Of a stretch of 5,502 nt of DNA, positions 2,049 to 3,989 are shown piece by piece. A program made the position numbers and the translations under genes. A model generated the notes under the pieces. That model had not been told where the DNA came from, did no database searches, and saw nothing but the letters and a program-made list of their open reading frames with translations. The stretch's first letter is position 1. Each line of letters opens with the position of its first letter. Source of the DNA: Bacteroidia bacterium (GTDB lineage Bacteria > Bacteroidota > Bacteroidia > Bacteroidales > UBA12481); contig JAPLDV010000414.1 of NCBI GenBank assembly GCA_026391235.1, positions 1-5,502 on the forward strand, given 5' to 3'.

Positions 2049-3425
2049 TTACAATCCGTATTCCGCTAAAATTATCTTATCCCCATCGATAAAAGGAATC
2101 ATCTCTTCAATGAATTCCCCCTCTTCCGACGGTATCGATTCGAGGTCCTGACGAATGGTATCGATCCAGACGTATTCCTTTTCATCATTCTTCAAACGGC
2201 CCTCATCCATAGCGGTCTGGATCATCGAAATGGCTTTCTTGCAGCCGTTTACGGTGCTTTCAAGATAGGTGCGTCCGGCCACAATCTCTTTCGCGATCTC
2301 GATGACCGTATCCGGCGCCAGCACAAAGGCCTGGGGATCATGGAATATATCGGAATCCACATAGAGGCTTTTCAACATCCTGGCCGAGGCTTTTCCCTGT
2401 TTGGTGGCAGCATTCATCAGCCGGGTTTCATATTCGAGCTGCTCAAAGGAGACTGTCGGGGCCATGCCGGCCAGCAGCTTGATGTTCTGAACCGATTCAT
2501 TGCTCCAAAGGTCGGCACAGGCGGCGGTGATATTGCCAACCGGACTGAAATGCGCGCAGGCGGCATTTTTTCCTTCCATCGAGATGGGAATCCCCGCAAT
2601 GGCTTTCAGATAAGGTCCTTCATAACCACAATCCTTATTGGGCCCCCTTGCTCCCTGTTCATAAGCCACCAGCGACCGGGTCACTGTGGCTACCCGGGCG
2701 ATTGCCGCAAAAACCTTGGGAATGAATTTCTTTTCGGCCAGAACCATGGCGGTATTGCCAAAAGCACAGGCAGTATCGCCCCCTGGGATCTTATCCAGCT
2801 TGTTGGCCAGAGTCACGATCTTCGACCAGATCATCTGCATATCCCTGACGCCCAGAACAGCCTGGGTAAAAATAAACTGGCGGATATCACACATCATCAG
2901 GGCATCGTCGGACAGTTCCTTGCCGCCAGTGGATTCAATCGACAGCAGATCTCCGCCGGCCAAAGCACCACGTTCAAAGAGTTCCATCATCGGATCCAGG
3001 TATTTTGAAGTCCGCTGCCGGGGCGGCCGGTCGAAATCGCGCAGATCATTGGGAGTCAGCCTGATCTCACTTTTCAGACCCTCCCGGGAATAAAAATCCT
3101 CACAGATATCATTCATCACCTTCACCAGTTCCACTCCGATATCCGGGGTGAGTGTCATTTCAACCACCGTTTCGAATTCCAGGATCAAACCTTCGCTATT
3201 CAGTTCAACCGCCCGTGTTAAGGCACCGGTCACGATATCAGAATAGTGGGTTCTTACCTCAGCCAGGTTGCTTTTCGATACCTCGACCGGCGGCAGGGTA
3301 AAATTAAGCTCCGGGTACACCAATCCGCCTCCGATCAGCAGCCCTCGTTTTGTTAATACCGGTTTAGGTGCAGTGCCGAATATCAGGTCATTTGGGTTCA
3401 AAATGGACAGTTCAGTAAAATTCAT
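2049..3425 (-). CDS. mtaB: Methanol:corrinoid protein Co-methyltransferase MtaB
   Basis: MtaB binds methanol at a zinc ion and transfers its methyl group to the Co(I) corrinoid of MtaC in the cytoplasm; MtaA then passes the methyl on to a thiol or similar acceptor. At 458 residues the product matches the Methanosarcina enzyme (about 461) along its whole length. The three zinc ligands known from the M. barkeri structure (Glu164, Cys220, Cys269) are all present: Glu164 in SIESTGGKE, Cys220 in GGDTACAFGNTAM, and Cys266 in GPNKDCGYEGP. Other family blocks are CAHFSPVGNI (290-299), LWSNESVQ (306-313) and DPQAFVLAPD (363-372). N-terminal LIFGTAPKPV and GGGLVYPELNF also match. The ATG has an AT-rich, Shine-Dalgarno-free leader. 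The gene starts 17 bases after the Rrf2 regulator's stop, so the two form an operon. No MtaC or MtaA gene follows in the window. Identity is near certain at family level; methanol as substrate is inferred from the intact zinc site. Confidence 0.93.
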   Translation of the reverse strand: MNFTELSILNPNDLIFGTAPKPVLTKRGLLIGGGLVYPELNFTLPPVEVSKSNLAEVRTHYSDIVTGALTRAVELNSEGLILEFETVVEMTLTPDIGVELVKVMNDICEDFYSREGLKSEIRLTPNDLRDFDRPPRQRTSKYLDPMMELFERGALAGGDLLSIESTGGKELSDDALMMCDIRQFIFTQAVLGVRDMQMIWSKIVTLANKLDKIPGGDTACAFGNTAMVLAEKKFIPKVFAAIARVATVTRSLVAYEQGARGPNKDCGYEGPYLKAIAGIPISMEGKNAACAHFSPVGNITAACADLWSNESVQNIKLLAGMAPTVSFEQLEYETRLMNAATKQGKASARMLKSLYVDSDIFHDPQAFVLAPDTVIEIAKEIVAGRTYLESTVNGCKKAISMIQTAMDEGRLKNDEKEYVWIDTIRQDLESIPSEEGEFIEEMIPFIDGDKIILAEYGL

Positions 3426-3442
3426 ATATCGTTTATAATGGT

Positions 3443-3853
3443 TTAGCTAATCAGTTCAAGGAGAGTAGTTTGACCTAGTACTTCATTGGTCTTATCACGG
3501 ATAGTCAGAAAAACCTTCCGGATTTTGCAGTTTGCTTCATCCTTGCAAAACTCACAGGGTTGGTACTGTTTTTCAGAGACGCAATAGAGCATGGCTATCG
3601 CTCCTTCAAAGTATCTCACTATATCATAGAGGGTTACTTCGTCCGGTTTTTTAATCAGATAAAAGCCCCCGTCTTTCCCGGGTTTGCTTCCCAGCACGCC
3701 CATCTTTTTCAAATCCAGCAGTATTACCTCCAGGAATCTCTGGGGTATCTTTTCCTGGGTAGCGATCCTGCTGCTTAAAATGGGCCCGTTCCCATATTCC
3801 TTAGCCAGATGGGCCAGTGCCACCATGGCATACCGGGTTTTCATTGCCAGCAT
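3443..3853 (-). CDS. Rrf2-family transcriptional regulator with four-cysteine cluster
   Basis: This is a 136-residue winged-helix DNA-binding protein of the Rrf2/IscR/NsrR family. It opens with MLAMKTRYAMVALAHLA, the usual first helix. IPQRFLEVILLDLKKMGVL (36-54) is the recognition-helix block, and KPGKDGGFYL (57-66) is the wing. The C-terminal half carries Cys91, Cys100, Cys103 and Cys109. In IscR, NsrR and RsrR three cysteines in this region hold an Fe-S cluster, so cluster or thiol-based sensing is plausible here. I chose the first ATG (3853) because family members begin one or two residues before K-T-R-Y-A; ATG 3844 is the alternative. It is the first gene of an operon with mtaB, which suggests that it controls the methyltransferase and itself in response to redox state, iron-sulfur supply or a related signal. 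An inverted repeat overlaps its promoter candidate (3872-3892). The family assignment is firm; the signal sensed is unknown. Confidence 0.92.
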   Translation of the reverse strand: MLAMKTRYAMVALAHLAKEYGNGPILSSRIATQEKIPQRFLEVILLDLKKMGVLGSKPGKDGGFYLIKKPDEVTLYDIVRYFEGAIAMLYCVSEKQYQPCEFCKDEANCKIRKVFLTIRDKTNEVLGQTTLLELIS

Positions 3854-3918: not shown

Positions 3919-3989
3919 TCTCACAACTGAATGAGCCTTTGTACTGACAAATCCAATCCAAAATTACAATATTTTCGACAATTGTTCAT

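Follow-up and report, generated by a model that had tools for sequence, protein, structure and literature searches.

A predicted methanol:corrinoid methyltransferase paired with an Rrf2 regulator in a Bacteroidia bacterium, with its likely corrinoid partner encoded elsewhere in related genomes

The rrf2-mtaB locus

The DNA analysed here (the window) is a stretch of 5,502 nucleotides, positions 1 to 5,502 of contig JAPLDV010000414.1 in the Bacteroidia bacterium assembly GCA_026391235.1. On its minus strand, a gene for a methanol-type corrinoid methyltransferase, MtaB, lies directly downstream of a gene for an Rrf2-family regulator, separated from it by 17 bases (Table 1). Beyond rrf2 lie a pstS-like gene, divergently oriented, and part of a pstC-like gene, and the first 1200 positions (1-1200) encode a protein without a Pfam match. 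No corrinoid-protein or UroD-family match was found among the six window open reading frames (ORFs) scanned, and a six-frame comparison of the window with the partner families described below (C1, UroD-A, UroD-thioredoxin, RACo and homocysteine methyltransferase) gave no match. The original prediction, of a complete MtaB behind an Rrf2 regulator with no MtaC or MtaA adjoining, is therefore borne out, and its assignment of the DNA to a probable Bacteroidota is supported by the five nearest loci. It had also described the operon as ending in a repeat region. Repeats do exist, one inverted (18 nt, both arms inside 1287-1334) and one direct (20 nt, 1319-1358), but they are modest and lie about 700 bases beyond mtaB, between the flanking genes. 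An Rfam search of the window returned nothing at gathering thresholds.

Table 1. Coordinates of the mtaB and rrf2 genes and of the putative control elements upstream of them.
Feature	Position	Strand	Basis
mtaB, methanol-type:corrinoid methyltransferase, 458 aa	2049..3425	minus	PF12176; 2i2x_A; zinc ligands; tree position sister to acetogen MtaB
rrf2-family regulator, 136 aa, four conserved cysteines	3443..3853	minus	PF02082, 110 bits; 17 bases upstream of mtaB
TAnnTTTG-type -7 promoter element TAATTTTG, adjoining the inverted repeat	3959..3966	minus	Upstream alignment of window, L001, L002, L003 and L004
Operator-like imperfect inverted repeat AACAATTGTCGAAAATATT, upstream of rrf2	3968..3986	minus	Comparison with 19-base consensus

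The mtaB product is a full-length match to PF12176 (522 bits against a cut-off of 25, residues 2-445), and its residues 3-443 align with the MtaB structure 2i2x_A (E 6e-74). The expected zinc ligands, which we take to be the Glu-Cys-Cys set of the M. barkeri structure, correspond to E164, C220 and C266 (M. barkeri C269). Every one of the 133 aligned rows (130 distinct, with the window among them) carries all three, as had been claimed for the window alone. The family is large, with 7055 of 7999 scored candidates passing E 0.001, and the organisms named among the 120 matches listed are Porphyromonadaceae, Cyclobacteriaceae and Draconibacterium. Identity is 48% to Sporomusa and 37% to two archaeal-type rows. 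In a tree of 49 rows, built by a quick method and with SH-aLRT support only, the Bacteroidota sequences form a clade sister to Sporomusa and Caldicoprobacter, the archaeal type serving as outgroup. The window gene thus encodes a genuine MtaB, for which methanol:corrinoid activity is predicted from sequence, in keeping with the original expectation of an active enzyme.

The regulator exceeds the cut-off of TIGR00738 (101 bits against 73) and stays under those of the six more specific models that it matched (CymR, two IscR, the SUF regulator, RirA and NsrR). Its cysteines 91, 100, 103 and 109 are conserved in all four full copies (window, L001, L002 and L004; here L numbers denote loci and G numbers genomes), from which we infer that it may exert redox or Fe-S control. 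To place the pair in a wider context, five metagenome-assembled genomes (MAGs) with an MtaB 90-94% identical to that of the window were searched for partner genes. A full rrf2 lies upstream of mtaB in three of these close relatives, at gaps of 31 (L001), 73 (L002) and 109 bases (L004). L003 has kept the promoter and an intact mtaB, with rrf2 reduced to a 27-aa C-terminal remnant (L003:3653-3733), and no rrf2 was detected beside mtaB in L005. At several other MtaB loci, GntR or AraC genes take the place of Rrf2 as neighbours. The adjacency, which the original prediction had singled out for comparison among relatives, is accordingly shared in part, and the Rrf2-mtaB link is local.

Upstream of rrf2, an operator-like inverted repeat adjoins a promoter element of the TAnnTTTG type, which we take to be the Bacteroidota consensus. 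The 19-base operator consensus was drawn from the same sites that were then scored against it, with 100 shuffles per region; mismatches to it number 1 in L002 and L004, 2 in the window and L003, 5 in L001 (equal to the shuffled minimum) and 7 in L005. Rrf2 most likely represses its own rrf2-mtaB transcript.

Corrinoid partners in related genomes

Each of the five close relatives has a single MtaB with an intact frame of 458 aa. In all five, an MtaC-like corrinoid protein of about 223 aa, here termed C1, is encoded on another contig than mtaB, in a cluster that also holds a UroD protein of 357-360 aa and a homocysteine S-methyltransferase. The cluster of three relatives (L109, L110 and L112) holds in addition a second UroD-type protein and a CobW-type protein. 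The DxHxxG motif of C1 (D115, H117 and G120) is invariant in 12 of 12 aligned rows. A RACo activator was found in four relatives, on a third contig, so that mtaB, C1 and (where found) RACo are on separate contigs in all five. On the stretches around mtaB in these genomes (4970-21374 bases), none of C1, both UroD types, RACo and homocysteine methyltransferase was found; G002 has a distant UroD-family gene about 8.5 kb upstream of mtaB (L002:397-1500). "Unlinked" here means located on a contig other than the mtaB-bearing ones, which are 5-27 kb long. The suggestion that MtaB may use a corrinoid protein encoded elsewhere is borne out by these relatives. The genome-wide search proposed with it recovered both a DxHxxG protein of MtaC type and a UroD-like methyltransferase in all five, and an activator, of the RACo type, in all but G005.

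We then considered 393 genomes of the order of G002 (the close relative L003 is labelled Porphyromonadaceae, Bacteroidales in NCBI). MtaB was found in 17, two of them with short fragments, RACo in 26 and C1 in 44, where C1 counts matches above 280 bits, a threshold chosen once the scores had shown a gap from 290 to 212 bits, and leaves out MetH and other corrinoid proteins. C1 is present in 16 of the 17 MtaB genomes and in 28 of the 376 others (Fisher 6e-16), and RACo in 11 of 17 and 15 of 376 (1e-10); these p-values treat related genomes as independent and so overstate independence, and both associations are still significant without G002, G003 and G005.

C1 lies directly beside mtaB, at gaps of 20-148 bases, in eight of the 17 genomes (G050, G327, G126, G391, G265, G140, G278 and G378, the mtaB of the last being a fragment only). 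G023 has C1 7.7 kb from mtaB and G016 an archaeal-type MtaC beside it, and the remaining seven have C1 on another contig or lack it (G002, G003, G005, G072, G241, G015 and G236). RACo is beside mtaB or one gene off in five (G016, G023, G236, G265 and G327). With C1 and RACo co-occurring with MtaB and linked to mtaB in relatives, a stand-alone MtaB pathway, as the original prediction had proposed, is rejected. That prediction had named an adjacent mtaC in the same gene order as evidence against itself: a corrinoid gene does adjoin mtaB in 8/17, which in substance tells against it, but the order differs, being corrinoid-mtaB in the C1-linked loci, and rrf2 is absent there. Of separate note is L118 (G016:C25), an archaeal-type mtaC-mtaB-activase-DUF1638 cluster with an MtaB of 677 bits, which reflects gene transfer or contamination.

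In the MtaB tree, mostly C1-linked lineages stand near the base of the Bacteroidota clade and the window clade is nested, which suggests that linkage of mtaB to C1 was lost in the window lineage. We therefore consider it probable that MtaB works with a C1 partner encoded elsewhere and a RACo encoded at a third site, and that the rrf2-mtaB pair is a derived, unlinked form of an ancestral linked C1-mtaB operon. In such a system, the zinc enzyme MtaB would cleave methanol, or another small methyl donor like it, at the C-O bond, and C1 would receive the methyl group on its Co(I) corrinoid. C1 itself would come from a conserved cluster elsewhere in the chromosome, together with one or two UroD methyltransferases, often a CobW GTPase, and homocysteine S-methyltransferase, and the RACo-type activator would keep the corrinoid reduced. 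Since the candidate corrinoid partner is found elsewhere in the genomes of relatives, this would be an unlinked C1-MtaB variant and not a stand-alone enzyme.

Several observations weigh against this reading. The window MtaB scores 399 bits against the NCBI MtaB equivalog NF040651, short of the 720-bit cut-off, which the archaeal-type MtaB of G016 likewise misses at 669 bits, and the long Bacillota and archaeal branches at the root of the MtaB tree may meet falsely. C1 stays below the NCBIfam MtaC models NF040655 (103 against 420 bits) and NF040669 (102 against 450), and its best NCBIfam match is the glycine-betaine corrinoid protein MtgC_2 (189 bits against a cut-off of 370). Because the MtaC cut-offs are not reached, the term MtaC-like rests on the Sporomusa and Bacteroidota context: C1 is closest to the mtaB-adjacent proteins of Sporomusa, not to archaeal MtaC. 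The closest solved structure to its profile is 1y80, given as a Moorella cobalamin-binding protein in the available text of PMC3727330. The C1 tree includes the C1 genes of L160 and L183, added after ORF filtering, and leaves out that of G154 and a further, partial one from G231. Its Bacteroidota rows fall in a single clade (98/98), within which the mtaB-adjacent members are dispersed and the C1s of the window lineage have a subclade of their own. An MtaB-specific corrinoid subclade is thus not shown by this tree. Moreover, C1 occurs without MtaB in 28 genomes and so is not MtaB-specific, and in the window lineage it adjoins a UroD methyltransferase that is possibly a donor enzyme of its own. 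Among the MtaB genomes, C1 was not found in G236, nor RACo in G005 and five others. The presence of C1 and RACo in the window's own genome is expected from the five close relatives, which are fragmented MAGs with no completeness given.

A shared Rrf2 regulon over C1 and RACo is likewise unsupported. Upstream of C1 (five loci) and RACo (four loci, one with 169 bases only), the best operator matches differ from the consensus at 5-10 of 19 positions, and shuffled sequences reach minima of 5 or 6; a single C1 site (L112) has 5 mismatches against a shuffled minimum of 6, and the remaining eight regions are not under their minima. On balance, C1 looks most like a corrinoid carrier in shared use, an apparent MtaC by context and a non-member by NCBIfam.

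Methyl acceptor and alternative readings

Homocysteine is the best candidate acceptor, through an association that is with C1 and not with MtaB as such. All 15 aligned members of the homocysteine methyltransferase family share five invariant cysteines, among them C211, C277 and C278, which we take to be the cysteine set expected of the family. Strong matches occur in 33 genomes of the order, 30 of the 44 with C1 and 3 of the 349 others; these are matches above 430 bits, a line set after seeing the score gap, which leaves out 13 genomes with weaker matches only, G327 among them. Within the 44 C1 genomes, MtaB and homocysteine methyltransferase are unassociated (11/16 versus 19/28, p = 1.0), and the latter therefore tracks C1, not MtaB. 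In G378, one run holds the MtaB fragment, C1, homocysteine methyltransferase and a member of a methionine-synthase-activation-type domain family. We tentatively suggest that, in these Bacteroidota, methanol (perhaps from methylated glycans) may be used by way of MtaB, C1 and homocysteine S-methyltransferase to form methionine. Such a route could conceivably be a split methionine synthase fed by methanol, not by methyl-tetrahydrofolate (methyl-THF), working without coenzyme M, a THF methyltransferase or acetogenesis.

It is rather doubtful that MtaB acts on methanol in an acetogen-like manner, with the methyl group passing to THF and on to one-carbon oxidation or acetate. Acetyl-CoA synthase (CdhC) was found in none of the five close relatives and in 0 of 18 genomes in all, and formyl-THF ligase (FTHFS) in none of the five and 3 of 18. 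No stand-alone pterin-type (THF) methyltransferase was found in the five, four of which have a MetH-type domain only. Ordinary methylenetetrahydrofolate reductase (MTHFR) is present in four of the five. These results disfavour acetogenic use in the close relatives, whose assemblies may be incomplete, and make plausible the non-acetogenic, different acceptor that the original prediction had allowed for. They stand against the Sporomusa locus, which pairs MtaB with a pterin-type methyltransferase, and against L184, L187 and L192, where C1 lies near a pterin-type methyltransferase, a MetV-MetF-type fusion and formyl-THF ligase. In addition, a UroD-type MtaA might methylate THF, a role that MtaA has in acetogens according to the accessible text of PMC5770442. 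For the genomes of L184, L187 and L192, acetyl-CoA synthase was looked for in G016 only and was not found.

It is unlikely that MtaB is a remnant, or has drifted to a donor other than methanol such as a methylated sugar or an aromatic methyl ether. The equivalog cut-off that it fails to reach would agree with drift, as would its surroundings. In L002 (10001-18322), L004 (822-4832) and L005 (1781-7653), related genes begin 11-39 bases after mtaB. In L002, two of the matches are weak and fall under their cut-offs (melibiase, 23.9 bits against 27; rhamnosidase-type, 23.6 against 24.5), an MGH1-like glycosidase is clear (121 bits), and a D-lyxose isomerase scores 318 bits. The counterparts of these genes in L004 and L005 are 78-86% identical to them. 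Elsewhere, C1 loci lie among fucosidase, rhamnosidase, galactokinase and isomerase genes, in a hand-picked set with no control. Against drift, the 458-aa frame is intact in all five MAGs, at 90-94% identity, the ligands are invariant in 133/133 rows, and the nearest characterised kin of the window MtaB is acetogen MtaB.

The gene order in L002, L004 and L005 is as if mtaB headed a glycan-use operon; a PDB sequence search with two of the L002 genes downstream of mtaB gave no match. C1 clusters without mtaB on the stretch also occur among sugar genes: L193 (fucosidase, rhamnosidase), L207 (lyxose isomerase), L197 and L206 (glycosidases) and L195. These five loci, which have no control set, give hints of B12-dependent demethylation of O-methyl sugars. 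The glycan link as a whole is a qualitative one and draws on 45 of 105 same-strand neighbour ORFs, hand-picked for scanning, with 25 of 58 matched families listed and no background control.

Equally improbable is that the C1-UroD cluster serves methyl-sulfur or methyl-selenium salvage in the manner of the type 1 mlp clusters described by Kountz and Balskus, with MtaB using another corrinoid protein or MetH: the component classes are alike in the available part of PMC10418091 (MtaA-like UroD proteins, corrinoid protein and activase), C1 occurs without MtaB as noted above, and in each of G001, G003 and G004 PF02607 picks up one or two proteins beyond C1 and MetH, but the definition excerpted there (at least two Mlps, a corrinoid protein and Ram, in one direction and within 2 kb) excludes the relatives, where RACo is on another contig, and no small corrinoid protein besides C1 was found by PF02607 in G005, where C1 is the only match, or in G002, where the sole other one is MetH-sized. 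The zinc sets argue the same way. As given in that text, His-Cys-Cys marks the S-methyltransferases of the superfamily, with Cys substituted in O-methyltransferases. By alignment to the L014 UroD protein, UroD-A (7 sequences) has His-Cys-His, and the UroD-thioredoxin family (14 sequences) lacks the His; a third UroD family, beside C1 in other genomes (7 sequences), has His-Cys-Cys. Given its His-Cys-His set, UroD-A may be a second donor enzyme sharing C1. Of 56 loci surveyed, 14 carry a member of the UroD-thioredoxin family, 451-576 aa long; the L109 copy (L109:6667-8289, 540 aa), the only one given a domain scan, is a UroD methyltransferase fused to thioredoxin-like domains.

Comparison with known systems

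The probable arrangement, MtaB served by an unlinked C1, is closest to the MtaBC-MtaA methanol:THF system of the acetogens Sporomusa, Moorella and Acetobacterium, with which it shares the zinc ligands, 48% MtaB identity to Sporomusa and, going by the close relatives, a C1-like protein and RACo. The Sporomusa loci L007 and L009 hold RACo, two C1-like proteins (41-44% identical to C1 and 28% to archaeal-type MtaC), MtaB, a pterin-type methyltransferase and a CobW-type protein, and the accessible text of PMC4632017 supports the view that Sporomusa metabolises methanol through MtaB and MtaC. In contrast, the close relatives of the window have the parts on separate contigs and, in most cases, Rrf2 beside mtaB; a stand-alone THF methyltransferase, formyl-THF ligase and acetyl-CoA synthase were not found in them, and neither the window nor L001-L005 has the cognate corrinoid protein beside mtaB that is characteristic of acetogen-type loci. 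The system would therefore be a variant of the methanol methyltransferase system, as judged from its genes, in organisms where the usual acceptor pathway was not found.

An unlinked mtaB is not unprecedented, since the Caldicoprobacter-type Bacillota loci L006, L010 and L013 have mtaB without a C1- or MtaC-like gene on the stretch examined, and a second Moorella mtaB, apart from the mtaABC cluster, is described in the excerpted text of PMC13391211. A similar 409-421-aa protein follows mtaB in the three Bacillota loci. Bacterial mtaB outside acetogens is also known, for example from Spirochaetaceae and Anaerolineae MAGs (PMC11279179, in the part available); no description of a Bacteroidota MtaB system was found in the portions accessible of the open-licence literature searched. 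Passages of PMC5770442 and PMC6302309 propose and use mtaB as a marker for strictly anaerobic methanol users or for methanogenesis. A Bacteroidota MtaB clade in which no acetyl-CoA pathway was found could mislead such surveys, and it points to another fate of methanol carbon in anoxic settings, for which the co-occurrence of C1 and homocysteine methyltransferase offers a directly testable alternative acceptor.

Type 1 mlp clusters (Kountz and Balskus 2023 preprint, in the text available) likewise occur in anaerobes and bring MtaA-like UroD proteins together with a corrinoid protein, and differ from the system described here in that its activase is unlinked, its zinc set is another, MtaB is present in the genome and a homocysteine methyltransferase sits in the cluster. 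The Methanosarcina system (2i2x, with MtaC) shares near full-length MtaB homology (E 6e-74) and the same expected zinc ligands, whereas C1 is smaller than archaeal-type MtaC and only distantly similar to it (27-29% identity). Finally, C1 resembles the B12 module of MetH and the homocysteine methyltransferase its N-terminal module. Here these are separate polypeptides, and, if methionine is indeed the product, the donor would be methanol via MtaB in place of methyl-THF.

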